Part shown: one piece after another, positions 6,198 through 61,057 of the stretch
Layout: the number at the start of each line of letters is the position of its first letter
How positions within the stretch are numbered: position 1 is the first letter of the stretch
Source of the DNA: Thunnus maccoyii
Taxonomy: Eukaryota > Chordata > Actinopteri > Scombriformes > Scombridae
DNA: 64,000 bases
NCBI RefSeq assembly: GCF_910596095.1
Contig: NC_056538.1
Location: forward strand, 20,012,501-20,076,500
Reading direction: 5' to 3'
The notes under the pieces: model-generated
The model's database searches: none
Seen by the model: the letters and a program-made list of their open reading frames with translations, nothing else
Told to the model about the DNA's origin: nothing
Translations under genes and position numbers: made by a program

Positions 6198-6305
6198 AAA
6201 AAAGTTAATCAGAGTTTATTCATTCATGCTAGCTCTGTTCACTTGCTAGCTCTGAACAGTTTAGTAGCCTAAAACTAACATTTTGTAAAACTATTTATTA
6301 TAGAC

Positions 6306-6815
6306 ATGGTACAAAGGAAAGAGACAGGGAAGAAAAGACAGGGAGAGAATGTCAAGGTAAAATACAATCAGTGGAGAGAGGACAGGATGGAGGGTGCCAT
6401 TAAAGAATATAGGGAGGCAGTAGAGGCAGGGCAGAATCCCAAACTAAGATTCTTGGCAAGAGCATGGGACGTGCCAAAGTCAACTTTGGAAAGACAGGTC
6501 AATGGGAAGATCAGTGGCTCCAAACATGCCTCTGGCAGGAAACCCTACCTGTCAGAGGCAGCAGAAAAAGAACTTTCCAGCATAATAAAAATGCTATCTC
6601 ATCGTGGTTTCCCCTTGGGCAAGAAAGATATTCAAAAGCTTGCTTTTAGCTTTGCCAAAGCTAATGGCATTAAATGCTTTTCGGAAGCCAAGGGTTCAGC
6701 TGGTTACCACTGGTTCAACAATTTCATGAAACGTCACAAAGAACTGAAGATCAAAAAACCTGAAAGAAAACCTGGGATGAAATATGAAACATTTAAGAGT
6801 TATGTTAAGGTTTAA
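6306..6815 (+). CDS. Pogo/CENP-B-type DNA-binding protein, no DDE domain
   Basis: This intact 169-residue ORF starts at ATG 6306 and lies inside the inverted-repeat element 5713-7194. Residues about 18-70 fit a pipsqueak-type helix-turn-helix, including LARAWDVPKSTLERQVNGK. Residues about 80-155 fit the CENP-B/Tc5-type second helix-turn-helix, with RGFPLGKKDIQKLAFSFAK and the usual W-x-x-x-F-x-K-R-H segment (WFNNFMKRHKEL). Full pogo/Tigger transposases continue for several hundred residues with a DDE catalytic domain. Here the protein stops after KKPERKPG and a short basic tail, and no DDE-like sequence follows before the right terminus. The likely role is binding to the element's own end repeats. 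Such a protein could act as a competitor or a host-adopted factor, but that is inference. The domain call is firm; expression is unknown. Confidence 0.7.
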   Translation: MVQRKETGKKRQGENVKVKYNQWREDRMEGAIKEYREAVEAGQNPKLRFLARAWDVPKSTLERQVNGKISGSKHASGRKPYLSEAAEKELSSIIKMLSHRGFPLGKKDIQKLAFSFAKANGIKCFSEAKGSAGYHWFNNFMKRHKELKIKKPERKPGMKYETFKSYVKV

Positions 6816-14038: not shown

Positions 14039-14862
14039 CCAAGGAGGGTTGAATCAAGGTTAACTGGACTTGGTTGAAGATACTTGAAGACGTTTCATCC
14101 AAGGGGCTTCTTCAGTTCTAACTGGCTGGTGGGGAGTCCCAGGTATTCAACCTACATGGGGTCATTGTCAAGGTCATTGATACCACTTGGTTCGTTGGTG
14201 CTCCTGGCTGGTTTCTCTACTTTGATGTAGATAGCCTCCTTCACTCCTCTTTCAACATCAAAGTTGAGAAACAATCCCTCAACAGAGGAGAAGGTTTACG
14301 GCACCACTTATCCCCCATCTACACTCCAACTATTGTTGTTTACACTTGGCCTCAGGTGATTCCAACAACTAACAACTGTTGTGTCAACAGTTGGGAGCAC
14401 TAACAAACCAAGTCATATCAAGTAAATGGTAAATAGACTGCACTTATATAGTGCCTTTCTAGTCTTCTGACTACTCAAAGCGCTTTTACACTACAAGCCA
14501 CATTCACCCGTTCACACACATATTCATACACTGATGGCAGGGGCTGCCATGCAAGGTATCAACTTATGCATGAGCGGGATCTAATCATTTACACACCTAT
14601 TTGAGCACTTTGGGGTTCAGTATCTTGCCCAAGGACACTCCGACACTTCGAGGAGCTGGGAATCGAAGCGCCAATCTTCCGATAAGTGGATGACCTGCAC
14701 AACCTCCTGAACCACAGTCGCCCCACAAATCAAGGACCTTGATAACGAGGTTAAATACCTGGCATTTCCCACCAGTCAGTTAGAACTGAAGAAGCCCCAT
14801 GGATGAAACATCTTCAGGTATCTACAACCAAGTCCAGTTGCCCTCGATTCAAACCCTCCTTG
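14039..14862. mobile_element. Element with ~95-bp inverted repeats
   Basis: The left arm, 14039-14139 (CCAAGGAGGGTTGAATC..., ACTGGACTTGGTTGAAGAT, GGCTTCTTCAGTTCTAACTG), is the inverted match of 14765-14862. No ORF lies between the arms. A SINE is nested inside. The motif GAAGAAGCC...GGATGAAAC is common in fish genomes, but I cannot assign the class with certainty. Confidence 0.6.
14424..14724 (-). mobile_element. tRNA-derived SINE, nested, minus strand
   Basis: Read on the minus strand it begins GGGGCGACTGTGGTTCAGGA, an A-box-like tRNA head, followed by a B-box-like GCTTCGATTCCCAGC. Its 3' part contains the fish block CAAAGCGCTT/TATATAGTGC. The left end on the + strand is AATGGTAAATAGACTGCAC. 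It sits inside the inverted-repeat element 14039-14862. Confidence 0.65.
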
Positions 14863-15061
14863 GAGAACCAGGACCTGGATGACTGAGAATCTTCATAGAT
14901 ATAATTTATCTAACACTCTCGGGGAGCTTTTGCACATTTAGGGTTTAATTATTTTCTTTTTTCTCTCTCAGATTTGACTATTATTGATTTTTTTATATTA
15001 CACCCATGTGTGTTGTTTGCATGTATGAAGTAATTTAGTGCCTATACTCTCAGTTGCAGGT

Positions 15062-18000
15062 ATGAGGGTGCTACACTGGTGCGTACTGGGACTGACCACC
15101 CTGCTGTTGGCGTGTGAGGTCACCATCAGTCAGCTGTGCAACTCCCTCATCACCCTGGTGGTCGCGTTCCAGACACTCTTCATCCTCATGTGGATGGCTC
15201 TTCCTCCTATTCAAAGTGCAAATGTAAAAAGATCTCAGCCTTCCTCTCTGGACGCAGCTGCGTCTCCTCCACATGCTCCCTCCTCATCATCAGCACTTCC
15301 TTCCATCCCGGCCACAGAGTCATCCATCGAACCTTCACGTGTCCTGCAGACAGCCACCGATGAGTCAAGCGTTCCTGTTGAACCTCCCAATCCTCAGCCT
15401 AACCACGAAACAGCATCAGTGGTCAACTCTCATGAGCTCATCTCCCCAAATATCTCTCCTCCAGCTCTCGTCTGCGGCCTGTCCTACGCTGACAGCAGGT
15501 CTGAGGCTTTCGGAGCTTTCTTTAATGTTCTCGTCCTGGCCTCTCTTAGTATGTCATACTTGCTGGAAATCATCGGCTTTTTCATGGATCCTGAACCAGT
15601 ACAGCGCCCCCTGCTGCTTGTGGTTGTCGGAGCTGTCAGTCTGCTCCATAAAATCTTGGTGCTCGGGCTGAACTGGGATCAGCTGCAGGGCGAAAGGGGC
15701 TGGGCCGCCAGGGGGCAAGAGACCGAATGTCACCTTGAAGTCAACCACAAAGGTAACATTACCAACAATATTTCATCTCATCTGAAATAGTAGACGACAT
15801 GTTCACAAGAGAGCTGACTGTCCATGCAACTTTCCAATAACACCCCGTCATGAGTATTTATAAGTCTTTATTAATGATTGATAAATATTTGCTAATGCTT
15901 TATAGCTCATCAACTTTTGGGTTGCCAGGTTGTGGCTGATGTTTATCCTCCTCCGGTAGTACACTTACTTTGTCTTTTTAGCTCTTAAGTTTGTTAGAAA
16001 GAACCCTCCACTGGATTGTTTGACATCTGACCTTCTGCAAAACTAAAGACTTGGTGTATTATTATAAGAAGCTGTTATTAATTACTTATTAACATTTCCA
16101 ACTGCAGAATTGATGGTCTGTTAGAAAGTGAAAAACTCATGACTTTTTATCAATGACTTGACTATTTCTGGCCTACCAGAGAGATTTTCTACAACATGGA
16201 AAACCCAACAATTACTTCTTATTAATGGTTTATAACTGATCTAAAACATCAGTAAATTACATATAAACCCTTTATAATGAGTGATTAGAAAGTAGTACCC
16301 AATAACTTACTTACATACTAGTTATAATCCATGGTAGAAATGAATTACTCAATTACTGTACTTTACAATTTTGAGTTACTTGTGCTTTTCTTGAGTACTT
16401 AAATTTTCAGCAACTTTGTAGTTCTATTCCACTACATTTCAGAGGGAAATTCTACTCTGCATTTATCTTAAAGCTTTAGTTAATGTCAAAGAACAGTGAA
16501 ACATGTGAAAGTCAAAACTCAACCCTAAAATTTATTTTTTTTGTTCATGACATCAACTGTCTGTTATTAGGGAAAAGAAACACAATGACTGTGTTGTATG
16601 TAACAGTGTGTAAATTATTATCTGTTACATAAAACTCATTTTATTTTATTCATCTCATCAGGATGGTTTAATTTCACTACGACACTACTGTACTCGGCTA
16701 AAAGAAACTACAACAGCCATAATTCATGTAGGCTATGGACAACAGTGCCTGTCTGTGGGCAAACCCAAAATAATATTTCACAACAATCAGTTTTTAATGT
16801 TTTATTAGTGACTAATCAAAACTCAGGTTTAGTCTAATTTTCAGGACAAACAGGACAGAATTCAGGATTTGGGAAAACTGCTCGTAATTCGGAACTGTCC
16901 TCAATTTTTCAGGATGTCTGGTCACCCTAATCTGAGTACTTCCTCCACCACTAGTTATAATGTTATACTAAGTGTCAGAAAAGGTCACATGAAAACAGCA
17001 TACTCACAGTTTTCAAACTATGGTTTTAATGAGGATTTTAGCCTTAAATTTGACTTTAAAGGAATAGTTAGACATTTTGGGAAATACAATTATTCACAGA
17101 GTGCCAGATGAGAGTCTGTAAAATATGAAGCTAAACCCAGTAGTCGGGTAGCTTAGCTTAGCACAAAGACTGGAATCAGAGGGAAAGAGCTAGCCTGACT
17201 CTGTCCAAAGAGAACAAAAGCACATTATATCTCATTTGTTCAATTCATACAAAAAGCAAAGTGTAAAAATGACACATTGTTAGCTGTTTCCCCTTGTTTC
17301 CAGGCTAAGCTAAGCTAATAGGATGCTAGTTGTAGCGTCATAGTTATCGTACAGACATGAGAGTGTTATCGAAGCTAACTCATGATTTTTCTGACTGGAA
17401 TATGGACACATGACATCCAGTTTCAGTTGGTTAACAACATAAATCTAATTGATCTAATATGAGATACAGTAGTTAGTTGTTAAATGTGTGACTATCAAAC
17501 TTTTCATTGTAGTTTAGGATTTAAGTCTAATGTCATGTTTCTGGTTTAAGACATGTTGCTGCAGTTCTAGTGAATTAATTTTGTAAAATGTGGCGTATTT
17601 AACAGCTCACCATGATGCATGAAGCATATTTGAAAATGCTTTTGCACTTTTTTCCACCATAAATATGTTCAATTACAGAATTAAGATGCTATTAAAATTG
17701 ACAAAGTTCAGCGTGAGTTTCAAGTTAAGTGTAAAGTTAAGTTAAGTGTAAATGTGCTTGTCCAGGTGATGATATTGCTCTGACATGTTTCACTTTGAAG
17801 TAGCTGCCAAGTGTATATTCAGCTGTAAGGAACATCAAACAGTGTCCATGTTTGTTTTTCATTCCTCTGTTCGACTCCCACAGCCTTGGCTGAAGAGGAA
17901 AACCAGACTGAACCACGGCAAGTCCTGGATGATGTTAGCCAAGTCCAATCTGCTGTGGACGACGTGCTCCACAATGGGGCGCTTGTCCTCTGCAACCCGG

Positions 18001-21000
18001 GAGCCTCCACTATCCCTGAAACTGACTCTCAGGCCCCAGAGCAACAGCAAGAGGTCCACCCGCACCCAGCAGCTCCACAGGACAGCCAGGACTGTGAAGT
18101 AGAGAAGGGCGTTGTGGATTTGAAGGCCTGCAAGTGTGAGAGTCATTCAAAAGACATCGCAGAGATTTCTAAAGACAGTACCTGCGTAGGACATCTCGGT
18201 AAGGCAGATGTGTCTCCCTTAGTGTCCCTTGGAGAAAGAGACATTTGAATTCAATGCACATGTGTTTTTTTTAAAGATTTGGTCTTCATATGTGACCAAA
18301 ATGAAATTGTCTGTTTGGTGTGTGTGAGATGTGTTTGTGCAGGTGAAAATATTCTTACGTGAAACAAATATTGACAAAACAATCTCACCATAAAGTCCAT
18401 TAGTTGCTATTCTGGAGCTTCTCGGCAGATTTCCCAGTTATCATTGTATTGTAGATGTTATGTCTGTATGTACATACCTGTGGGGAAATTTGAACATCTG
18501 CAGCTTCATGTCAGCTGGGTAAACTCCATGTGCTGAGGAAGATCGTGTGAAAGCTCAAAAGCTCCATTAAGGCTACTAATGGACCTTGTGTTGAGATTGT
18601 TTTTCCAGCTGCTGTTTCCATGGTGAAGAATGAACTTTCAATCAAAACATCATCAGTGTGATTATTTTACACATGATTTTGCACATAATTGCCATATTGT
18701 GAAACGTAAATTTGAAAATATATTATCAGTGTGAAAAAGATTGACTCAACTCAGCCTGTTTCCAGAAACACTGTTTGGACTTCACATCTATCTTGTAAGG
18801 GCTCTAAACATAAAATGCTTTATTCTCTAGTGGGAGATGACGTAATGAAAATGTGATGTTTTCCCATGTATTTATGTTTTATTTATAATCTGTACTGTAG
18901 CTCTGATCACATGTTTTAAAAAAAGGACTTAAAAGTCATGTGTTTTTATGTTCTTTCCCTTTCAGACAATGAAAAAGCAGTCTGCAAGTCAACGCATCAC
19001 AATGAGAGCCCTGTACCAAGCAGCCGGTGGCCAGTCTGTCTCCTTTTATTCGTCTTCGTCATTCAGGACCTGTTAACCTCCGTTCTCGGTCTGATCAACA
19101 GCCTGGTGATGCTGCTGGTCGGTCCACACTGCCTCCACAGCTCTGGGCCCTGCAGCCTACTGGTTTACCTGGATCCTTGCCTCTCCGTACTGGCTGTGAT
19201 TACATTGATGACCATAGTTACGCCACAGGTCAGGCTATGTGCGTTTATATCATTCCATTTAGTTTAAATGCTTTTAAGCACATAGCTGAAGCTCCCTGTT
19301 GCTCATATTAAACACAGCTGTATCCAAACCAGTAATGAAATTTGCTATTGTTTCACTGGTAAATCTCCTCTCCAGGGTCGCAGGTTTGGGCTGCTGCTGC
19401 TACAGGGCATACCTCCACACATTTGTGTGTCTGATCTTGGACAGAGGATTATGAGTGTGCCTGGAGTGCAGGCCGTGCATGACCTCCACATCTGGCAGCT
19501 GACTGATTCATTGATGGTGGCTTCTGTGCATGTGCACTGCCATGCTGGGTTTCCGACACACAGGTAAAGTAGCAAAATTTGACTTTCGTACTGGTAGAGG
19601 ACAATATACACACAAATATTATTAAAAAATGGTGCGAGGCTTTAGTATATTTCCTGGCAAAATACATGATAAACTACCAGCTTCCAACTGCACAGTACAC
19701 ACCTCCCACCAACATGAGTCAGCTGTAACACTAAACACCACATGCTGCAACTGAGAACACATGAAAACTAGTTAGAAAGTGAACAGATAAGACAAATAGA
19801 CTGCAAGAGTAATGGATGAGTGACGCATGCTACTCCAAATGCTAACTTGACCAACCCTACTGAAAAAAGAGAAAGAGACAATCCCAAGATGACTGTTTGT
19901 CATTGTCATACAGTTAATTGTGTTAAATAACATCCATTTTTTAAAATATCATTATCATTATCCTCTGTAGGATTAAGATTGTACTTCACAAAATAATACA
20001 TACCTGCTCTAAGGAAAGAAATCTGAGGTTTTATTGTTTAACATTCTTTAAAACTGCACTGGGCAACCTCAAATATTTGTTGCTCTAAATGGCACTGAGA
20101 GATCTGACATCAATAAACTATACGCAGCATGCTGGTGTTTGTGGGCTTTTTATAAGTTTTGTATTCCACTGATTTATCACTTCCTCTGCGGTGAAGAGTC
20201 CATGCTCGATAAAAGACTTTAATTTGGCCAGTCTGGGGAAATCGTCTAGATATGAGCTGGGAGGGATGGGATGTTCTTCTTTGTGTGGTACATGGATTAA
20301 TATATATATAGATATGTTTTCAGCCTGAGTAGAACAAAGCATTTTACAAAGCCTTTCATTCACTAAAGCACACACAAACACTCTCAAACTAATAGTGGTT
20401 TGTAAATACATATATTTTTAGAGTTAAACCTCCATTAATAGACCTTTTAAGCCACTTGGCAGCAGCACAACAAGTTGTAAACACAACATTGGCCTACAAT
20501 CGCAGTATGGAGTTGTTTTTGAATAATTACATATTCAGCAGATACGGGGTGACGTGAGCATTCATTGCAACCCAGTATTCACTCTCCTTTTATCTTTGTT
20601 TATGCTCTCTAATAACTCCTGAGGAAAACATCTGGCTCGTTAGCTGCAAATTGCTCCACTATGTTCTCCAGCTAGTCACTAACTTTATCTGTCTGCTGTT
20701 TGGTGCTGGGCAGGAAGCTTACAGGGAGTTTAACAGTGCTTTTTTGCTAAAAAAAAAAAAAAAAAATAGAGCAGTGAGAGACAAACAAAACTATGAAGTT
20801 GCAGACCAAAAAACCAAAACAATGAAAGACGCTGAAACGCTCTGTAAGGCTGAGGGAAACTACAAAGTCAGGTTATTCTATGTGGGTTTGTGATCCTTTT
20901 CACTTCGACAAAGTCATTTAAATGTATAAAAATATTGATTGGTGCAGCTTTAAGTTTAGCCTGATGTGGCTCCAAAGAGATTATCCTGCTTATCTATTGC

Positions 21001-21756
21001 TGCAACCATGACAAAAACAAGATCCTTTTCATGTTATATTTTTTTCTCATTATTAGTAGGTACCAAATTATTCAGTTTTAACAAGAAAGTTTTCCTGTTA
21101 TAACAACATGTCATTTTATCTTGTTGTATCACAAAACTTTCTTGTTATTACACAAACTCAACTGATCTCAAACAGAAGTGGCACATCAGTTAGAATAATT
21201 GGCAAATACTTGTTTATATGGTTTGATTAAGTTTTTATTTCATGTTGAGCACAGCTAAAGGTATGATCCATCTATACCTGCTTATCCTGTGCTGGGTCGC
21301 AGGGGGTTGGAGCCAGTCACACCTCACGTTGGGCAACAGGTGGGGTCGACCCTGGACCATCAGTGTCACAGAGCAGACACATACAGACAGATAATTCACA
21401 TATAGAGGTGGTTGGTGACTATTTTCATATGTTTGTTTTTGTCCAGATTAAACCTACATGTTTTATTAATGTCCAGGTGTGCTGATCTGATGTTGGGGGT
21501 CACCAAAGTGCTGCAGAGTGTAGGAGTGAGCTGCTGCACCGTACAGCCAGAGTTTGTTGCCTGCTCAGCATCCTCTGCAGGCAGCCAGGGTGGCGCTTCC
21601 CCAGTCGTCGAGGACCCCTCCCTGCCTCCTGTCCTGGCCTGCAGCCTGGCCTGTGGAGAGGCCTGTGCTGGGAGTATGTGCTGCACTCCCGTCGGGGAAA
21701 CAAAAACAAAGGAAGAGCCTGAACAGACACCGGTGATCGAAAACACCAATCAATGA
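15062..21756 (+). CDS. ZnT1 (SLC30A1)-like CDF protein, metal ligands lost
   Basis: Five exons join in frame: 15062-15752, 17884-18198, 18966-19228, 19376-19563 and 21477-21756 (578 residues). All introns are GT-AG. The layout follows ZnT1. TM1-TM2 lie at residues about 7-47, TM3 at 150-170 (RSEAFGAFFN), TM4 at 183-203, a long cytosolic loop follows, then TM5 (about 359-387) and TM6 with LLVYLDPCLSV. The cytosolic CDF domain contains VHDLHIWQLTD and VQPEF, and a ZnT1-type Cys cluster ends the protein (LACGEACAGSMCC). Known ZnT1 proteins carry HxxxD pairs in TM2 and TM5 that bind Zn. Here the aligned residues are Gln37/Ile41 and Phe366/Asp370, so only one of four ligands remains. The His-rich loop is absent and the TM2-TM3 loop is expanded with Ser/Pro. 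I infer a non-transporting or partner-dependent paralogue, as ZnT6 is for ZnT5. The start is ATG 15062; an AATAAA follows at about 21990. Confidence 0.85.
16340..16470. repeat. Family B fragment in ZnT1-like intron 1
   Basis: TACTGTACTTTACAATTTTG and ACTACATTTCAGAGGGAAAT blocks, as in the other family B copies. Confidence 0.6.
17065..17345. repeat. Dispersed teleost repeat, family C
   Basis: TTAGACATTTTGGGAAATAC, AAATATGAAGCTAAACCCAG, AGCTAGCCTGACTCTGTCC and CTAAGCTAAGCTAA blocks recur near 30.5-31.1 and 39.1 kb, with weaker copies elsewhere. Confidence 0.6.
20430..20960. mobile_element. Dispersed non-coding repeat in intron 4
   Basis: The segment ends AATATTGATTGGTGCAGCTT and contains a spurious Lys-rich ORF arising from an A run at 20750-20765. 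I recognise the arrangement from fish genomes as a non-autonomous repeat, but not its class. Confidence 0.45.
21263..21400. mobile_element. Fish retroelement tail fragment
   Basis: CTATACCTGCTTATCCTGTG, GGGTCGCAGGGGGTTGGAGC and CCTGGACC are hallmark blocks of a very common teleost interspersed repeat. The copy is short, degenerate and non-coding. Confidence 0.55.
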
Positions 21757-22699
21757 CCGTCGGTTTTAGCAAAATTACACTGGAGGAAAATAAATGAATG
21801 ATCGGATATCCAGATGTCCAGATGGTGAATGGAGAAATCAACATATTTGAAAGTGTCATTTCTATCATGACTGCTCATTTTCATTGAAATATGTCAGTCA
21901 CCAAAGATTCCTGCGTAATATCAAGTCTGTCAAAGGATTAACTGGAAAGATTTTTATGTTGCATCATTTGTATCTGGAAACTGTATTCTAATAAAAACAC
22001 AAGTGTCTCCTCTCATTTTTAATATAGGTCAACTTATTTGATCGAGGGAAACTGACAGATCAGAGCTGCAAAGTGAAGTACAAAACAGATGCAGTTTAAG
22101 TGACTTAAACTTGCAATAACAGTTTTGGCCACTTGGAGGCAGCAGGAAACATGACACACAGTCCTCACCTTGAAAGGTGAAATCAACAAACGGTTGCTTT
22201 TAATACATCCAGCAGACACGGAGCACCAATATAATTAATTTGCAGTTGTAGCTGGCGAATGTAAGTCCAATATATACTCTGTTTTAGCTGTTTTTGGTTC
22301 CGGCCCCCGAGGGAAATGTCATTTGATGCTTTAGTAGCCACAATAGAATCTACGACGACACCTTCTTTATTTAGTATTTTACACATGAGACTCATCATTC
22401 ATGTGAGGAAAAAGTCAGTTTTATTGAAACAGCATCCATTTTGTTCATTTATGTGTTTAGAAGTTATAATGTAGTTGGAGGAAATATAAATTAAAACAGT
22501 GAATTATGAATTAAACTCATTAAACATGAACATTAAAGATTCATAATTTTAAAAAAGAACATGGCCACAAATTTTTTTTTAAAAATCACAAAAAAATCTC
22601 AATTTTAGACACTGCTGCTCTTCATACTCCTCTATGGACCCTCTCATTCTGTCTTCCCTCCATATGTTGAGTTATCTTCCTTTTCTACTAATTTTCTGT

Positions 22700-26145: not shown

Positions 26146-26382
26146 TAGTCTGATGAGGAGTCATATTTGGTGTGAGGACGGAATGACTATAAAGCCTGCT
26201 TGATAAATGAGTAAAACAGTTTGTTATTAAAGGATAGGTTCACAATTTTTCTATTTTGTCTTAACCTGTCTGCACCTGACTGATTGCAGGGGTCTGATTT
26301 CCTTTTTGAAGTATTAATATTTATTTCTTACCTTGTCCTTATTCTGTCTGTCTTCCAGATTTTGCTTTAAAGACAGTCCATT

Positions 26383-29300
26383 ATGCCTCTTCATAAATAC
26401 CCCCTCAAAATCTGGGATGCCCTGAAACTGAAGCAGGGCATCTACGCTCGTCTCCCTAAACATTATCTCAAGTCCCTCGAGCAGAAAGAGCCCACAGCCG
26501 TCCACTGGAGGCCTCTGGGAGTTCAGTACAGAGCAAACTCAAAGACAGGGCAGAAGGAACGGGTACAGGATGTCCCGATCCCCATCCACTACCCTCCACA
26601 GTCCCAGGACGGCCTGTGGGGAGGAGAGGGATGGATATCAGGCTTCAGATACGCCAACGGCGACAAAGTGAGTCTCCAGGAAGATGATTTGCTTTCTTTA
26701 AAATATGTATTGTTTACATTTTGTTTGAAGGAAGCAGCTGTTTATTCTTGTCTTCATTGTAAGTGTGAATGACAGGCGCTCAGTATTATATTGTGCCTTT
26801 TAAGATTGTAGATACCTTAAACTCCAGACATAAAGCCACAGTATCTCTGTCTGTTGTTTTTATTCACCTCTGAATTGTCTCTTTGCTTAGTTGTCAACTC
26901 GTCTGAGGAAGACCTGGAAACCACAATTGTTCAAGAGAGAGCTGTACAGTGAGATCCTCGATCACAAGTTCACCATCACGGTCACAGCTCGCACTCTGGA
27001 CCTCATCGACGCTGCCTTCGGATTTGACTTTTACATCCTCAAAGTAAGAGAAAACTGTCCGAGTGCTGAAAAAGACACAATTTGGGAACAAAACAACATT
27101 TATAACAAGCTCTCTAATTGTCCGACTCATATTAGACACCAAAGGAAGACCTGAACTCAAAGCTGGGGATGGACCTGAAGAGGGCCATGTTACTTCGTCT
27201 GGCACGCAAAGACACTGAGCTTTACCCCAACGACTCGGTCAAGAGAGAGAAGGTCTACCACAAATACAAGGTGGGTCACTTGTGTTTTAGTTCACTGAGT
27301 GATCTCAAATGTGTTAGTAATTAAGTGATGTCGGTTTATTTCAACCTGGAGCACAAGGTAACTGCCTGAAGCTCAGCTCATGCAGTTCCTTTTCCCTCAC
27401 AACAGCTGAGAACAAAGCAGCAGTGCTTCTTTGTTGCAGGCTTTTTATGATGCTTACTAAAGGAAGCATAGAGGGTGAACATGTCTTGTGTTTTTGATGA
27501 GAAAGACATTTTATATAAATCTTAGGGACAGTAGGCTTGTTTTTAAAAAAATCTATCACATCTCCATTTTCTTCTGCATAGATCCTCAGGAGTTCTTACA
27601 TGTCACTCTCCTAATTAGATGCAAAAAAGTCAGATTTATTGATTGTCTCTCAGAGATAATACCGTGTACAGTGTCAGATCTGTTTGTTTTGTGATGTCGG
27701 TTTATTTCAACCTGATGTATTTCCCATAAATGTGGCCATTGTGGTTTTATGTGTCATGCTAATTTTGCTCTCACAAGCTCTGTTATCAAGATTTGGGGAA
27801 ATGCACAAAAAGACGTATTATATCGCACAAAACAACAAGTTGCAGGGCAAGCTGCTGAGCCTCTTACAGCTTTCCAAATAAACACGATTTTTACATGAAT
27901 CTCTTCAAATGTGTCCGAGTCTGAACGAAAGTAAACACAGAAACTAGCCGCCTGTAGCAGCCATTATGGCTTACTGCATAGAGATCTGTATCCAGGGAAA
28001 CTTGTACGTCGGTTTGTTAATGCCTGAGGCTGTGGATAACTCAGTGTCGTAGATAAATAATATGGATCATGCCCGCAAGTTTCCAAATTACATAGATAAA
28101 ATGACATGATAGACGATGCGCAGTTTTCATGGACTATACAGCTGGACAATAGAGACTCACATACTGTAATTTCTCACACAGCTTGTTGTGTATAATCACA
28201 TTTTTCCATTTGTAGTAGTTACACAGCTGATTACTCTCATCTGTGGACATTTTTAGATTTTCTGAGTATGGAAGCAACATGTCTCACTTTTCCTCCTCAC
28301 TCAGCAGAAGAGGAGAGCTCTAACAGTCCTGTTGCCTTTCTGCCTCCATTCTTCATTTCCTTCACTTCCTCCATTTGTTTTATTTTCTCTCTGTGTACTC
28401 CAGCTCAAATAAATACAGTTGGCCATCTAAGTGAAATGACTCATGATCGTTGTCATAATAGTCAGTAGGATAATCTGTCATTCCACTTAGTGTTTTTTAT
28501 ACATGTAAACAAACCAGCATGTGCAGATGAATACACAGGGTGGTTAGGTTAGCCGGCAAGTTGCCCCGGATATAGATCTCTATGCAGTGAGCCATAATGG
28601 CTGCTACAGGCAGTTAGTTTCTGTCTACTTTAGTTCAGACTCAGAAACAAACCTTTGAAATGATTCATGTAAAGGTCATGTTTATTTAGAAAGCTGTGGG
28701 AGGCTCAGCAGCCTGCCCCAGTTTCGGTCAATTTGTGCAATAATTTTGTGAATCCCCCAAATCTTTATAATGGAGCTGGAGAGAGCAAAGTAAGCATGAC
28801 ACATGGAACCATGGCCACATTTATGGGAAATACATCAGGTTGAAATAAACCAGAATTTCCCTTTAAGACTAATATATCATGTATCAAATAACTTAAAACA
28901 ACAGTCAGGTGCAACATGAACACTGAAAGAGGTTTTCCTCGCTGTAATCATTCCTCTTGTTCACACTGGCCATTAAAAGATCTTCTTCAAAGTGCTTTCA
29001 ATGTAAGTTATGGGGGCTAAAATCCACAGTGTGTCCACACAGTCATTTTGTGCAAAAATGTATTTGAAAATTGATCTTAAGCTTAAATGAGTATTCAGCA
29101 GTCTGAGTTAGTGAAGTCAAGTGGATATCTGCCACATTTACATTTATTTTAGCATCAAATTCCCTCTTTGTGTTTCCCTGTTGAGCTGTGGTGGAAGTAT
29201 AGTAACAAAAAGAGGAACTTTGGCACTAAAAAGACTGTAACGATGAAAGATCTACTTGATATGACAAATTTGGACAGGTGAAGCTTCGTATTCGTTTCAA

Positions 29301-33211: not shown

Positions 33212-34774
33212 CAGTTGTGTTCAAAATAATAGCAGTCCCACTGTTAGAGTTTCAACTTCTACACTGAAAGTAAGTTTCTAGAACGTTTAGTAAAGGTATA
33301 GAAAACCAACAGACCCAACAGGCATGACGTGCATGCTGCTGATTCTGTGAAACTGAATCGTTTACTGAAAGGGGCGTGTTCAAAAAAAAAAGCAGTGCCG
33401 AGTTCAATTAGTGAGGTCATTGATTATGTGAAAAAAATAGGTGTTTAACAGGTGGCCCTTATTTAAGGATCAAGGCAACTGACACTGCATATGCTGGCTG
33501 TGCATTTGTGCTTGAAAAACAGAGTAATATGGGTCGTTCAAGACACTGTTCAGAAGAAGAGCGTTCTTTAATTAAGAAATTAATAAAAGAGGGGAAAACC
33601 TATAATGAAGTGCAGAAAATGATAGGCTGTTCAGCTAAAATGATATCAAACGCTTTAAAATGGCAGCCAAAACCAGAAAGGCGAGGAAGAAAAAGAAAAA
33701 CAACTATTGGAATGGATCGGAGAATAACCAAAATGGCAAAGGCTCAGCCAATGATCAGCTCCAGGAGGATCAAAGAAGATCTAAGATTGCCTGTGAGTAC
33801 TGTAACAATCAGACGACGTCTATGTGAAGCCAAGCTACCAGCAAGAAGCCCCCGCAGAGTCCCATTGTTAAAAAAAATACATGTGCTGAAGCGGTTACAA
33901 TTTGCCAAAGTACACACTGACTGGCCTAAAAAGAAATGGCGTAATATTTTGTGGACTGATGAGAGTAAGATTGTTCTTTTTGGGTCTAAGGGCCACAGAC
34001 AGTTTGTCAGACGTCCTGCAAACATTGAATTCAAGCCACAGTACACAGTGAAGACGGTGAAGCATGGTGGTGCAAGCATCATGATATGGGGATGTTTCTC
34101 GTACTATGGTGTTGGTCCTATTTATCGCATACCAGGGATCATGGATCAGTTTGTGTACATCAGAATACTGGAAGAAGTCATGTTGCCATATGCTGAAGAG
34201 GAAATGCCCTTGAAATGGATGTTTCAACAAGACAACGACCCCAAACACACCAGCAAGCGAGCAAAATCATGGTTCCAGACAAACAGAATTCAAGTAATGG
34301 AGTGGCCAGCACAATCCCCGGACCTTAATCCCATAGAAAACTTGTGGGCTGACATAAAAAATTCTGTTCATGAGGCAAAACCAAGAAATGCAGAGGAATT
34401 GTGGAACGTAGTACAATTGTCCTGGGCTGCAATACCTGTTGACCGGTGCCAGAAGTTGGTCGACTCCATGTACCACAGATGTGAAGCAGTTATCAGAAAC
34501 CGTGGTTATGCAACTAAATATTAGTTTATGATTCTCAGGAAAGTTGAATCTTCAAGCATTTCTTAGTTTATACAGTACATTTTTGAGTTTGTAAAGAAAG
34601 ATGTCAACACTGCTATTTTTTTGAACATTATATTTCTTGACTTTCTGTAAAATATTATCAAATTCAATGACTTTTTCCAATTTTCTCTAATTTTCATTAA
34701 AATACAATTTATTTGAAGCATTTTGAGGTTTACTCACCTTTTTAAACACACTACTATTATTATGAACATAACTG
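33212..34774 (+). mobile_element. Complete Tc1-like transposon with IR/DR ends
   Basis: The outer termini are CAGTTGTGTTCAAAATAATA (from 33212) and TATTATTATGAACATAACTG (to 34774), both flanked by TA (33210-33211 and 34775-34776), the Tc1/mariner target site. Inner copies of the same motif occur at about 33376-33399 (GTGTTCAAAAAAAAAAGCAG) and 34609-34628 (CACTGCTATTTTTTTGAACA). Each end thus carries two repeats, as in the IR/DR subclass. The 1.56-kb length and a single intact transposase ORF indicate a recent insertion. Confidence 0.9.
33529..34524 (+). CDS. Tc1-like DD34E transposase, intact
   Basis: This uninterrupted ORF has 331 residues from ATG 33529 ([13 protein letters not shown]). 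The N-terminal third has paired helix-turn-helix regions separated by a basic GRKRK segment (AT-hook/NLS-like; GRPR in relatives). The catalytic domain has Asp144 in WTDESK, Asp235 in [10 protein letters not shown] and Glu270 in [11 protein letters not shown]. The spacing between the second Asp and the Glu is 34 residues, the Tc1 signature. The length is within the usual range (about 340) and no stop or frameshift is seen. It would cut and paste the flanking element 33212-34774. Whether it is active or expressed cannot be told from sequence. Confidence 0.92.
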
Positions 34775-39414: not shown

Positions 39415-42400
39415 TCATAGCTCCTCTTCCGTCTTCACGTGGACCACGTTGGAGGGGCAGTCCTGTGGCTCTGACTGTGGCTGAGTCTGGTTCTCAGTGA
39501 CAAGCCTGTTGAACTGCACGTCGCTGAAATGGGAAAAGTCCGGCTGGTACACACCAAAGTTCTGGTTTAAGTTCACATCCATGTTGGCAAACGAGGAGTT
39601 GAGGTCGGCCCCCAGCTCAAAGCCGGTGGGCATCGACGAGGTGAAGTTCGGGTCGGAAAACATTTCCCATAATGCAGGCATTTCTATCAACTGATTAAGG
39701 AGGTCATCAGTGCTCATGTTAGGGTCCTGGGGCTCGTTGTAACACATTTCCCCCAAAGCGGAGGCCGTAGTCGGGGCAGCACAGAGCCTCTCGTCTGGCA
39801 TCATGGTTTGAGCCTGCGGGAAGTGGAAGGGCTGCTCTGCTGCAGGTGCTCTCTCTGCTGCACGAGAAGAAAAGGATTGTGTTACTGAGGAAATAAATAC
39901 ATGTCACATATATGATGAGAAGTCCGTTATCAGGTAATGGACTTGGATCATGACATGCAATTTTTTTGTTAAAAAAAATGATTTAAAGATTATTTCAATA
40001 CTTTTGTGCATCATAAGGGATGTGCTTTGCAATTTTGATGATGGTGTAAGAACAAAATGTATGTTTGCATGGCAAGAAAATCCATGTAACATGCAAGATA
40101 TTGACATTAATATACAGTAGAAACATCGCTGTAACTGTTCATTGTGACTGTACCTTTCTGTACAGTTTATACTTTGCTTAAAACCTGGAACATTATAACT
40201 GGTTTATAACGGCACTTCATCGCTGTCCATACAAGTTATTTATGGAAAAAGATTTTCTCCTCTTAGACCTTTTTCACGGCAGACATTTTGAAGCACAAGT
40301 ACAACTGATAATGTTAATGACGGCTCTGTTCAATTCACAGGCACAATAACTGGTGTATAATACAACCATAATTAATGTTATTATTTACACTTATGCATTT
40401 CCTGTATGACAACTCAATGTTTGTTGTAAAAAGAAGGCCTGTTAATACATGCAGTCATTGCATCAGTTTACCTCCTAACTGCCTAAACACATACCAGCAA
40501 AAGTAAAAAAAGAAGACAGTGAATGAAAGAAAGGTAAAGAGGTCCAAGCCTCACCTGTGGCACAAGGTTTGTCTCTAAAGCTGATGTCCGACTTTATCTT
40601 TCTCTTCCGCTTCACCTCATATGGATCTGAGATTGTAAAAGTTCAGAAATATTTAAATTAACTTCTTGTTATGGTTCATAGCCTTAAAATTATTAGCTGT
40701 AATTATTCTTTACATTTAATAACATGTACATTTCAGTCATTTAGCAGACACTGTCATCAAGAGTGATGACAGGCTCAGAGCTACAGTCGAGTCCTGACTC
40801 ACCTGGGTTGTGTGGCAGGTACGTGAAGGGGACCGGCTCGCTTGTCATCTGGTCTGAGAGACGACGCAGGTAGACGTTGACATCGACCTCCTCTGTGATG
40901 TCCTGGTCCTGGTAGGGAGGAGTCTTGAACACAATGGCGATCTGTCGGTGCACATCTGTCTGGGCAAACTCTCCGTTTGCTTTCCACTGCCCTCGTCGGA
41001 AAATGATCTCTATGTCATCTGTGGATCAGCAACAACACAGAAAGTCGCTGTGATCAAGACGCAATCATAAATTGCCGAAGCTGATGAGAGAATAAAGAAT
41101 TATTTTTCTATCCTAATTTCAATTTTGAATGACAAGTTCAAGTGTTGTCGAATGTACCTGCCGTTTATATCTTAATTTATTATAGCCATACCAAATATTG
41201 TGTCAACTTTCACAGAATGCAACAGCGAGGAAATCACATTTCAACATCTGAGCTTATGGATAAAACAAGATTTGCTCTTTAAATGGGTGGACAAAATAAC
41301 AGAAACACCTTTTCTACAGAAAGCCTGACGAAAATACCAAATAGCTGAAGCTCAAAATTATTTTTGTCGCACCAGACAGCAACTACTGGAAATCACAGTC
41401 ACAATTGTTGAGCAGTGGTTGCCTAAAGGTTAGAGAAGTGAGCTTGGCCCTCCCTCATTACTACCACTGAGGTGCCCCTGAGCAACTTGACTACTAGTTT
41501 TGCAAAATAACAAGTTTTACAAATGAGTTTTCAAGCGCAGCACAAAAAAAAGTTAAAGCTGTGGAAAGAGCCAAAAGAGTTGGTAATTTATTGCTCTCAA
41601 ACAGCAAGAATATAAAAAGGACATATGATGCGCAAAACACAGGAAATCAGCCTCAGCAAAGACAAACAACAAGCAGTCAATGACTAAAACTCCCTTGTGA
41701 TATCTGCACTGATAAAAATAACATTACAAACAAAAGTCAACAGAAACTAAACAAAATTTTCTGTTTCCTGAAAAAATCCAGCCCACAGTGACTCAAGAAA
41801 TCATTTGATGTTGGCTGTAAAGTAGCTGACTGACCTTCCTTCACTGAGTCTACAACATGAATCCTTCCTACACTTGACTTTGCCAGTTAACAATACACAG
41901 TAAAAATACCCCAAATCCAATAAAGCCAGTTTCTAAATACAGCTGAGATTAAAGAGAGACCATTAAAAGTTTTGTGTCTAGTTTTATATGCAAAATACCT
42001 AATTTTATTAATCCTTAAAAAGATTTGGAAGTTTAGACGTCTTGAATAATTCTCAGCCAGATGTTTCCTAGACGTAAATCCTGTAAAGATGTACTCAACT
42101 TTCTGAAGCTTCCTTTGTTCACCCTCTGTATATTTTCTACACGGGCAGCAGAACAGACACAAATAAAACTCCACCGACTGATGTTTTATCTCTCTCACCT
42201 TTCTGTACTTTGTCACATAACATGTAGATCTCTGTCTTGCCAATGCAGGAACCTCTGTTCTGGTTCAAACAGCTGATCTTCAGCTGTGATGTAGTTGTGG
42301 CCTCTGTGAAAGACATACAAGCAAACATGTGAGAATCAGGAAATACATCAACATATTTCTACTGTACTGTGGTCTACAGTCGTTAAGCGTGTGTGTGTGT

Positions 42401-44512
42401 TTGTGAGTCTTACTCTTGTCGTAGATCGGGTTGGACACCACTGGGTTGAGACAGTCTTTCCTGCCGTCCTCCCAGTCCAGCTCACACTGGAAACACAGAC
42501 GCACCACATTCATGTCCATGTCTTCAATGCCCTTTGAGTGACCAGCTGAGGGACAAAAAGACACAAAATTATGATGTCTGCCATGAGGAGTCACAACAAA
42601 CTGCATCATCCATTGTTATTAGACAGATCAATATATAGAAAAAAATTAAGCAATATAAACATTGTTGACGTGTGTGTGTCTCGTCCTACTTTGAAAAGGG
42701 TCGATATTCTGGCTTCTTCTCTTCTGAAGTGAAACGTCCAGCTCTTTCCTCCTCACACACTGGATACCGAGGTTAGAGAAGCTGTTGAAACACATTTTTG
42801 TCAGTACGATGATATGAGATGATCAGGAATACATGTTCAGTGGTGGAATAAAGAGAAAGACGAAGAGAAAAAAGAAAAGAGGAAATGTATTTTCTAAAAA
42901 AAAAAAAAAAAAAAAAAAATGTGACAAGAGATAAAAACAGTATGTGCACCTGTGACGTCGGTTGCTGTGAGGGTTCATTGTCACCATGCAGATTCCCGAA
43001 CCGTTCGGGCAGTCTTTACCCACGAGGCAGTGGGGGTGAGGCCGATGTGGAGGATCCTTGGTCACCAAGGAAACGGTGACTGTGACCTTCTTTATGTGGT
43101 CGATGGGACCCTGAATCTGAAAGAGAGAAAACAGGACAGGAGGGTTAAAGAGAAGTTTACAAGGCAACAGTGAACATATCACACGTGATGTAGGCCTAAA
43201 TTATGTTGCAGCACACTCTAAGCATGTCTTTTTTCTGATATATATTTATATACACAGAGAACAAAGAAAAAGAAATGCAAAAATGAGAACATTTGACATT
43301 CAAAATATTAAAATATGCAAAAGATTCTGCCTGAGGAAGAGCAGCAAGTTTTAAACACATTGCAAACTGTTGATCCAAGCCTTTTGTGTGTTCTTCATGT
43401 TATTAAGTGCCATTATTTGTGCATATATTTAGCATAGTAATATTTCTCACGTCTCCTTTTTACTGTGTATTATCATTGACACGTTTGGGAAGCCTTTTTC
43501 AACCATTTCCTTAATAGATAACAATCATTTCAGGAGCAGCATTTTTAAAAACTCCAGTGTCAGAGGTACCAATTTCATCAAGAGGAATAAAAAGTCGGGA
43601 AAAGGCAAACCTGTCAAAATGAATACCATTATATTAACTTGATCTTAAGCAAGAGTTCACTAAATAACTGCATTCAAATTACACAAAAAGTAGAACATCA
43701 ACATCTCTGCAACTCTCGATTGTCTTCTTCAATGTGTGAAAGTGGTTACATAAGGTGAAGATGAGTGTGTAAGAATGTTTGTTAGTGGGTGGGGCGGGGA
43801 TAAACCGCCCGTCTTTGACCACACTTGAGCTTGGATTTGTGGGGACTTTCTGATTGACTCTTTCAACCCACATCCTTCCAGCTCCACCCTTTTACACCAC
43901 TCGACATAGGGGGTTCAAGTGTGCACACCACATACGATCAAACAGTTAGTAAAAACCCCATTTCAGGTCCAAGACGAAAACTGAATTTAACTGTATAGAG
44001 TCTGACGTGATTATCTCTACCTCAATCGCAGGCTGAGTCTTGTTGGTTTCTGTGCCGGACGCCCCCAGGATGCTGCCGGCTGACCGTCCCTCACACTCAT
44101 AGCGAAATCTCATGCCTCTTTCTTTGGGCTCTTCCACCACCACCAGTTTGGGCTTCTCCAGAACCCGCTCCAGCATATCCGTCTCACCCTGGCCTTGAGA
44201 GGAGACGCCACCGGAGTTCCTGGAGGCCAGCAAACACGAGGAGCCACGACCGCGGCGAGGGGAGCTGGCATGAGAGGAGGCTCCTCGGGAAGGATGAGCC
44301 ATTTCCCTGGGAGTGCACGTCTGCTGCGGCAGCTGGGGGAAGGTGCACGTTGGCTGTGGGGGAAAAAAACATAACAAATTGACATTATTTAACCTTTATT
44401 TAACCAGGTAGAGACCTGGCCAAGACAGACGCAGAAAAAGTTGCAAACAAAACAAAACAAAAAGCTAAAATAGACGAGTTTACAATGGTCTTGAATTCTA
44501 CCAAAAATAGTT

Positions 44513-58400: not shown

Positions 58401-61022
58401 TCTTCTTCTATTGTTTGCCATTTTCTTTATAGTTGTATCCTTTTTTTCTTTTATAAGTAAAATATAAGTAAAAATACATGAAGTCCTGTTTGTAGTGGTG
58501 GAAACATTTACTCAAGCACTTAAGTACAACACTGAGATACTTGTACTATACTTAACTATTTCCATTTCATGCTACTGTATATTTCTACTCCATAACATTT
58601 CAGAGGGAAATATTATTGTGCTTTCTACTCCACTACATTTATTTGACAGCTTCAGTTACTTAGTAGTTCAAACTAGCTCCACCTCCAGCAGCTACAACAG
58701 TAACATGCTGCTCTAACACTGATGCTTTAGTATTAATAATCTAATGATGTCATATATAATAATATGTCAGTCAGAGGGACAAAATGAGTACTTTAACTTT
58801 ATTACTTAATCTACATTTTGCTGCTAATACTCAAGTGGGATTTTTCATGCATGCATTACTTGTAATCGAGTATTTTTACATTGCTGTATCAATACTTCTT
58901 CCACCTGTTTGTGTGACATCAGCCTTCGAGTTTTCAACAACTGACACAAAATACTGCTCTGTTTAACAGAAAACAAAAAAAGGACACGGGAGTACTAGAG
59001 TAAATAAACACTTCAGACAAACTTACCAAAGGTTAACAAGAAGCCATAGAGCATGCTGAGTACCCATGAGTACCAGCCTTTGTGCTCTACATACAATAAA
59101 CTGTAGACCGCATAGCAGCCAAACAGAGGGTAGAGCAGCCACGACAAGTACTTGAAGGCCATCTGTGCACAGAGTAAAGGAAGCAACAGTTAACTTGTTA
59201 TCAGAAACTACAAGAATACATTTTCAATATTCCTTTTTCGTCCACTTGTATAAAACATGTCTATAATATTCTATTCATTTCGATGGAGTAATGTGTATTT
59301 TCTCCACAGGGAAACATATGGCCAGCTCAGCTGTGGTTTGACTTACATCGTCATAGACTTTGGTTGAAGACTCGACATATGTTGACTTGTCTTTGAATAC
59401 CAATCTTGGGATTACTCCTGCGATTTTGTTCTCTCTGTCCAGCTAGAGAAAGATATAAATTGATGGTTGCTTGAATACAGTGGAAACAGGGTAACAAGAT
59501 GCACACATGCAAAACGTGATGCACAAGGGACAAAAGAAACATTGCTAAGAGGATATTCAAATATACTACAGAAAATTAAATACTGTTAAATATTGTTATA
59601 CATGAAAAAAGAAAGTTGTTTTGACTTACTCTGACGTCCATGACCTTGGTGATTTTCCACAGGTCAATAAGAAGGCCGATGAAGACGCTGACCTGCACCA
59701 CAAAGTTGGTCTCATTGTCGAGTATGTACAGCAGCACCACCAGTGACTGAAACACTCCAAAAATGATGGAGCGTACGGAGAGGCCTTCCAAAGACTGCCG
59801 GCTGTTCCAAAACTGGATATCTGAGGAGGAGAGGCAGGTGAGGAGTAGCTGTGGGCATTAAAAGATACCAGAGGAACAATTTTAGTCCTGAACACGGACC
59901 AGCTGTTGTGAACTTACCATTCTTGAAGGCAAGAAACTCAAAGATGCTGTGCACAATGGAGACGACAATGGTGAGTCCCAGGAGGTAGGGGTTGGTTTCC
60001 AGAAGGGCCACCTATACAAAGAAAAGTTTTTAACTTCAGTACAGAGGTAACACCGACAGGTTCTTTAAGTTTGATCAGAGAGTCCACAGGAGACACCAGC
60101 TGTTTATATACATATATCTATACATTACTATTGTGATACAGTGGCGAACACAAAGAATGGGGCCCCTATATAGGCTATTCTGCAATGTGTAATATACTGT
60201 AAGAAAAACACATCACACAACACATCTGTGTAACCAAATGGCAGAAATAAACCTTATGCTACATGTTTTTTCACTGCATTATGAAGTGCTTTAAGTTTTA
60301 TAGAAGTTCATGGACAGCTGAGATGTAATAACATTCAAAATTTAAAAAATTATTTTAAAAAGAATAAATTCAGAACAGGATTAGAATTTAATTTATATTT
60401 AAAATATAACTAAATATTTCTAGAGAAGCAACAGTAATGTTTACAACAGCAAAGTCACTATATAAACTCAATAACATCTCACTGTAAATAAATTTAAAAT
60501 GTAGATAAAACAAATAATATTCCTGACATCAAAATATTGAGAGAAGTTTAGACAGAATGAAGAACACAGACATCAGTCAGTATCAGTCATTCATCCTGTC
60601 CTCTGTCCTCCTCCCTCTGATGCTGATGATTCACTGGGAGGAGCTGGTCTAGAGGGGAGCTGGTTTGTCTCAGCCAGCGGCTGAGTTTACAAGAGTTTGC
60701 CAAATTTTAAGATATGTGACAAATTCATCTAAACAGTTAAGAATACATACAGACAGCTTTTGTTTTAGCTTGTTCGTAACAATTCACTATTAGCTGAGCT
60801 TGCGTGCTGTGGTTGTGTAAAACATAGCAGTGGTGGATGAGAGACTGCGGTCAAAGCAGATTCAAATTTCACTTTTTTTACATGTTCATGCTTGTTGAAC
60901 AGGTGTATTGATAAAGTACTGGATTTTTACTCTAAGGTTTTATTGCACTTACAGTAATGAAGGTAGTTGTCACCAACAAATTATTTTCACTTCACCTGTG
61001 CTCTGCTGTTCACTGACTTCAC

Positions 61023-61057
<35 letters not shown>

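Follow-up and report, generated by a model that had tools for sequence, protein, structure and literature searches.

The stretch of DNA considered here, a 64,000-nt window of the Thunnus maccoyii genome (C6:20012501-20076500), contains a five-exon gene coding for a relative of the zinc transporter ZnT1 (SLC30A1), together with exons resembling those of mrpl28, relB and clptm1 (Table 1). Joined together, the five exons of this gene, referred to below as the window gene, give 1737 nt comprising 578 open codons and a TGA stop, with GT-AG at every border and introns in phases 1, 1, 0 and 2. Borders, join and translation all agree with the open frame of 578 codons that had been described in an earlier note on this DNA, and the fold markers listed there (RSEAFGAFFN, YLDP, VHDLHIWQL, VQPEF and a terminal Cys cluster) are all present in the joined protein. 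AATAAA signals lie 3′ of the stop codon at 21789 and 21990. At the other end of the gene, the sequence ttgcag at 15054-15059, 2 bases 5′ of the ATG, resembles a 3′ splice site and suggests an upstream non-coding first exon.

Zinc-transporting ZnT proteins carry [HN]xxxD in their second transmembrane segment (TM2) and HxxxD in TM5, and the window protein has neither motif. In an alignment with Slc30a1 from the same genome, human ZnT1 and human ZnT10, the human ZnT1 residues H43, D47, H251 and D255 correspond to Q37, I41, F366 and D370, leaving D370 as the sole survivor of the four TM2/TM5 transport ligands. The alignment is gap-free around the motif positions in both segments. The earlier note had read Gln37/Ile41 in place of the TM2 HxxxD and Phe366/Asp370 in place of that in TM5; these residues are correct, fall on the ZnT1 ligands, and the losses stand in the alignment with ZnT1 and ZnT10 that it had proposed. 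In ZnT1, the H43A change alone is reported to cost 70% of activity, while H43N and H43D remain functional (PMC11549101). Since D47 is replaced by Ile and H251 by Phe, the site characteristic of the cation diffusion facilitator (CDF) family should not hold zinc here as it does in ZnT1. The protein is therefore probably a pseudo-transporter, with a destroyed transport site in an intact frame.

We looked for the missing motifs elsewhere in the window. Human ZnT1 probes for TM1-2 and TM5 found their best matches within the 64 kb in the gene's own exons 1 and 3. With the slc30a1 TM1-2 probe, exon 1 tied with a stop-bearing stretch of the clptm1 region; the slc30a1 TM5 probe and both ZnT10 probes gave only weak matches elsewhere in the 64 kb (best E 0.48 to 1.0). 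A scan for [HN]xxxD inside a 21-mer of mean hydropathy >1.0, which passed 6/6 true motifs from slc30a1, human ZnT1 and human ZnT10 in a control, found no hidden hydrophobic [HN]xxxD on the plus strand between 11 and 22 kb of the window. A missing exon carrying HxxxD was rejected on the basis of these whole-window probes and the scan with its positive control. The possibility raised in the earlier note, that HxxxD might lie elsewhere in the protein or on a missed exon, found no backing in the 64-kb probes or in the plus-strand scan of 11-22 kb.

Table 1 Features of the window, with positions counted from its first nucleotide.
Feature	Position	Strand	Content	Basis
Exon 1	15062..15752	+	TM1, TM2 (Q37/I41), Pro/Ser-rich loop (~residues 49-140), TM3 (RSEAFGAFFN), TM4	Alignment, residues read
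Exon 2	17884..18198	+	Cytosolic TM4-TM5 loop, scattered His, without clustered-His run	GT-AG, phase-1 introns on both sides, coding score positive in frame
Exon 3	18966..19228	+	TM5 (F366/D370), short extracellular loop without ZnT1 cysteine lasso, TM6 (YLDP)	Alignment, probes
Exon 4	19376..19563	+	First part of cytosolic dimerisation domain, VHDLHIWQL with D459 and H461	Pfam ZT_dimer; D459/H461 map to ZnT1 E371/H373
Exon 5	21477..21756 (stop included)	+	Remaining dimerisation domain (VQPEF), Cys cluster C541, C545, C549, C554, C555, stop	Alignment
Inverted-repeat element	14046..14855	.	108-nt arms, 88% complementary, ends ~200 bp 5′ of ATG	Repeat analysis
mrpl28-like exons	26371-27151	+	Ribosomal L28 family	Pfam; 26371-26769 without Pfam match, assigned by eye
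relB-like exons	39418-42615	-		Pfam and PDB; 39418-39903 without Pfam match, assigned by eye
clptm1-like exons	59579-63336	-		Pfam

A sequence search of the PDB returned SLC30A1 (87 bits) and SLC30A10 (70 bits) as best matches, and Pfam recognised the dimerisation domain ZT_dimer at residues 436-509 (29.5 bits; cut-off 26.7). A phylogenetic analysis of seven sequences over 190 columns (five taken from PDB chains, with ZnT5, 6, 7 and 9 left out) grouped the window protein with ZnT1 and ZnT10 against ZnT3/ZnT8 with support of 100. Placement with ZnT3, the sole outside placement tested, was rejected under three models by the approximately unbiased (AU) test (0.0004, 0.0008 and 0.0075). In addition, the C-terminal Cys cluster of the ZnT1/ZnT10 subgroup retains 6/6 of its invariant tail residues. 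Judged from its sequence, the window protein is a member of the ZnT1/ZnT10 group. Within that group, a position as sister to this genome's slc30a1 received AU values of 0.19, 0.17 and 0.69 and came out ahead of the five other trees under LG+C20, with a margin of 0.15 log units; the sister position to ZnT10 received 0.095, 0.091 and 0.54 and is not favoured, though still compatible with the tree. An origin of the window gene as the teleost-duplication sister of slc30a1 is likewise compatible with the tree, but we judge it less likely, as its five coding exons, compared with two, count against it. A scan of viral contigs with exon 1 yielded four stretches that matched a pattern, with no relative among them.

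The search was then extended to the genome (782 Mb in 54 contigs), in which a two-exon slc30a1 lies at C17:20.18 Mb. This gene has both motifs intact (SDSFHMLSD and HVLGDALGS), and its product shares 291/437 residues with human ZnT1, versus 116/405 for the window protein. Beside it lies a kinase gene that we recognised by eye and take to be NEK2, a neighbour of SLC30A1 in human as well. Because the C17 gene has both motifs, is far closer to human ZnT1 and has this NEK2-like neighbour, we conclude from these sequence comparisons that the window gene is not the SLC30A1 orthologue. Its own neighbours, mrpl28, relb and clptm1, give no indication of SLC30A1 orthology, and the RELB-CLPTM1 neighbourhood resembles that on human 19q13. 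Thus the label ‘ZnT1-like’ given in the earlier note holds in the sense of membership of the ZnT1/ZnT10 group, and fails as a closer identification, given that the protein has neither the lasso nor the clustered-His run of ZnT1 and that the true SLC30A1 orthologue lies elsewhere in the genome.

Two human ZnT10 probes found no slc30a10, the manganese exporter gene, in the whole genome; slc30a1 was the best match of both, and on this ground the idea that the window gene is itself a diverged slc30a10 was rejected. A strongly diverged slc30a10 could escape human probes, though the window gene was detected at 29-31%. Zebrafish Slc30a10 is given as only 42% identical to human (PMC5524415). The negative result agrees with a published table in which medaka, fugu, stickleback, Tetraodon, tilapia and cod all lack SLC30A10 (PMC4281218). 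Outside the window, at L022:7421-9640, an open frame of 740 codons, repetitive across the 320 residues read (CRTSLQL and CLSVFT types), adjoins a His-rich SLC30-like open frame. The window itself also harbours a Tc1-type transposase frame of 366 open codons (33424-34521; Pfam HTH_Tnp_Tc3_2 and DDE_3) and an open frame of 178 codons (6279-6812) that encodes the DNA-binding domain of a Tc5-type transposase.

Conservation along the protein is uneven. The residues invariant in the group are kept at 4/7 positions in TM1, 4/13 in TM2, 8/19 in TM3, 6/11 in TM4, 5/14 in TM5 and 8/14 in TM6, at 16/35 in the cytosolic domain and, as noted above, throughout the Cys tail. Other conserved acidic residues of the transmembrane domain are retained at E19, E148, E169 and D405 and lost at D34. 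Of the three cytosolic zinc sites of ZnT1, the mapping covered the third, described as E371, H373, C446 and C447 (PMC11549101); it corresponds to D459, H461, C554 and C555, with one conservative change. The TM5-TM6 loop reads GPHCLHSSGPC, without the extracellular cysteine-rich lasso, reported as a conserved feature of ZnT1 orthologues that other ZnTs lack (PMC11549101). The TM4-TM5 loop has nine His in 152 residues with one HxH, as against 10 in 89 with five HxH in slc30a1, 10 in 109 with five HxH in human ZnT1 and none in 102 in human ZnT10; the clustered-His run is gone and scattered His stay. Hydropathy segments were found at 2-51 (TM1 and TM2 unseparated), 149-176, 180-205, 350-393 and 395-424, with two more in the cytosolic part (490-508 and 538-556), and the count of six transmembrane helices rests on alignment to ZnT1.

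Between TM2 and TM3 the protein has gained a Pro/Ser-rich loop of ~90 residues. In a single-sequence AlphaFold 2 model of exon 1, which has low confidence (mean predicted local distance difference test score 53.9, predicted template modelling score 0.26), helices span 2-46, 133-141, 146-174 and 181-217, and the loop is otherwise coiled. A DNA search of the genome, in which simple repeats and very common words were skipped, found no second copy of the loop. The loop scores 0.027 per codon in frame, and 0.06 and -0.062 in the other frames; by itself it favours no frame, and the case for its being coding depends on its lying open within exon 1. We considered whether it might be a retained intron and rejected this, as the genome search returned the loop alone and as none of 162 overlapping intron chunks scores as high (maximum -0.246, introns being low by construction because they also formed the background of the score).

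For the gene as a whole, the evidence for coding is stronger. At exon composition, 578 codons would stay open by chance with a probability of ~4e-10, and at intron composition with one of 6e-19; the five alternative frames of the joined exons contain 14-28 stops each. GC content at third codon positions is 0.58, compared with 0.34-0.37 for the introns. We trained a codon score on this genome's slc30a1 and neighbour exons (798 codons), with introns as background; the open frame scored +126 and the remaining five between -134 and +26. Furthermore, when neutral evolution was simulated with substitutions only (1000 runs per point), the share of sequences free of stops fell from 36% at 2% divergence to 7% at 5% and to 0.8% at 10%; with frameshifts added at an assumed indel rate, 0.6% survived at 2% divergence. 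Taken together, the low chance of the opening, the codon usage and the simulated stop-free rates argue against long neutral decay and indicate a frame that was under constraint until at least recently.

These data bear on the reading that we favour, with roughly even confidence, namely that the gene encodes a non-transporting member of the ZnT1 group, which forms dimers via its cytosolic domain and serves Slc30a1 as a regulator or partner. On this reading, the window gene would be a protein-coding paralogue of the SLC30A1/SLC30A10 group whose product no longer moves zinc by the CDF mechanism. Through the cytosolic domain, this product would pair with the fish's own intact Slc30a1, or form homodimers, and in doing so might change the activity, location or stability of the partner, as ZnT6 does for ZnT5; the cytosolic zinc site could act as a sensor. 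A regulatory partner of Slc30a1 is our first choice because of three precedents. ZnT6 has lost its own site and serves as an auxiliary protomer of ZnT5, probably via the cytosolic domain (PMC7949119, PMC10932157); ZnT homologues, ZnT1 among the examples, are reported to heterodimerise on co-expression (PMC7949119); and ZnT1 has partners outside transport and is reported to bind Raf-1 and the beta subunit of the L-type channel (PMC7949119). The pseudo-transporter status proposed in the earlier note, on which this reading builds, is supported by the destroyed site, the intact frame and the group membership of the protein, and its non-transport component holds as probable. The role of heterodimer subunit or metal sensor that the note suggested is conjectural, though the retained ligands of the cytosolic zinc site fit it.

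Several observations weigh against this reading. The signs of constraint, open frame and codon usage, come from a single genome. The Pfam Cation_efflux match falls below its cut-off (22.7 against 26.6) and covers residues 145-207 only, and the NCBIfam CDF superfamily model TIGR01297 scores 54.7 against a cut-off of 82.35. Within the group, five placements differ by <0.2 log units under LG+C20. The branch of the window protein exceeds that of slc30a1 or human ZnT1 about tenfold (1.28 versus 0.12), a difference with which relaxed selection is also compatible. The window gene has no CpG island (0.43, versus 1.21 for slc30a1), and the inverted-repeat element lies just 5′ of it. In the cytosolic domain, Cys and His are kept at 8/10 positions versus 14/31 for the other invariant residues, a difference that is suggestive only (Fisher p 0.058), and two His are lost, at 499 (now Q) and 504 (now S). 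One TGCRCNC metal-response element in the 3 kb upstream, against four at slc30a1 and ~3 expected, is uninformative.

Some of these points would be accommodated by a gene that has recently been released from constraint and is becoming a pseudogene, the loss being too recent for stops to have accumulated. This fits the long branch, the upstream inverted repeat, the missing CpG island, the loop that shows no frame preference and the sizeable stop-free fraction in the simulation at 2% neutral divergence. We nevertheless think it unlikely, given that four GT-AG introns, start, stop and AATAAA are intact, that codon usage is in frame and the Cys tail complete, that the frame is still open although three ligands and most invariant TM2 positions are already altered, and that so few sequences survive at the same divergence once frameshifts are allowed at the assumed rate.

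Alternatively, the protein could be a non-transporting homodimeric scaffold or zinc sensor that works through contacts of the ZnT1 type, with the L-type calcium channel beta subunit or Raf-1. The title of a cited study reportedly describes zinc transport and calcium-channel inhibition by ZnT-1 as separable, which counts in favour of this, as do the retained ligands of the third cytosolic zinc site (PMC11549101) and the reviewed contacts of ZnT1 with Raf-1 and the channel (PMC7949119). Given the two lost cytosolic His, we regard it as quite unlikely. It is improbable that the protein is still a transporter, with a site rebuilt from Q37, D370 and perhaps E19 for another ion. E19, E148, E169, D370 and D405 stay in the membrane part, nine scattered His are left in the TM4-TM5 loop, ZnT10, with N for H in TM2, moves Mn rather than Zn (PMC10932157), and the H43N and H43D forms of ZnT1 are functional; set against this are the replacement of D47 by Ile and of H251 by Phe, the activity lost by ZnT1 through H43A alone (PMC11549101), and the single HxH in the loop compared with five each in slc30a1 and human ZnT1, human ZnT10 having none. 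Finally, a mis-modelled gene with missed HxxxD exons, at which only the acceptor-like ttgcag hints, is highly improbable in the face of a gap-free TM2/TM5 alignment, no better exon found by human ZnT1 probes in the 64 kb and no hydrophobic [HN]xxxD on the plus strand between 11 and 22 kb.

Returning to the partner of Slc30a1, a broader version can be put forward, tentatively and with considerable doubt: percomorphs, which appear to have lost SLC30A10, may have retained a second ZnT1-group gene and turned its product into a dedicated non-transporting subunit or cytosolic zinc sensor, paired with Slc30a1 in the plasma membrane, an independent second use of the ZnT6 principle, outside the Golgi. 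A literature search limited mostly to open papers found no report of a ligand-less ZnT1 paralogue in fish. If the losses are shared and constrained across percomorphs, the gene would show, by a natural example, that the roles of ZnT1 in dimers, sensing and scaffolding can be separated from transport, and would be another ZnT6-like case in which a paralogue was retained without its substrate site. The HxxxD motifs of fish genes labelled ‘slc30a1b’ or ‘ZnT1-like’ should be checked before these are read as zinc exporters.

Among known systems, those closest to the window protein include SLC30A1/ZnT1 of human and of the C17 locus. It shares with them, as far as the alignment shows, the six-TM order, and also the cytosolic dimerisation domain, YLDP in TM6, the cytosolic H-D/E-x-H-x-W motif, the ligands of the third cytosolic zinc site and the C-x3-C-x3-C-x4-CC tail, and 116 of 405 aligned residues are identical to human ZnT1. 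Unlike these, it has no lasso and no clustered-His run, has lost three of the four transport ligands and carries the long TM2-TM3 loop; the number of coding exons is five rather than the two of C17 slc30a1, and the neighbours of the gene are different. With SLC30A10/ZnT10 it shares the subgroup, a short TM5-TM6 loop ending in PC, the lack of a clustered-His run, the Cys tail and 109/401 residues identical to human, whereas ZnT10 retains NxxxD/HxxxD and transports Mn. Like ZnT6 (SLC30A6), a known auxiliary protomer (PMC7949119, PMC10932157), it has lost its transport site; ZnT6, compared here from its published description, differs in belonging to another subgroup, in having ZnT5 as partner and in acting in the early secretory pathway. 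The likeness may be one of convergence.

A further comparison is offered by teleost slc30a1b. Carp SLC30A1b-1 is described as having 5 exons and 482 amino acids, and the partial SLC30A1a models as having 2 exons (PMC4281218). Five coding exons likewise make up the window gene, whose product without the long TM2-TM3 loop has ~480 residues. From this match in exon count and loop-free size, which likens the two by description, the window gene is perhaps the percomorph form of slc30a1b. Against this identity, the table in PMC4281218 gives one SLC30A1 each in six percomorphs or cod; the gene may have been overlooked as too diverged in those six fishes, or be absent from them. Zebrafish slc30a1b is reported to be redundant with slc30a1a in jaw development (PMC8706747), which would fit an active transporter in that fish, speaks against a transport loss common to the whole lineage and, if the genes are orthologous, would make the loss of the ligands a later event.

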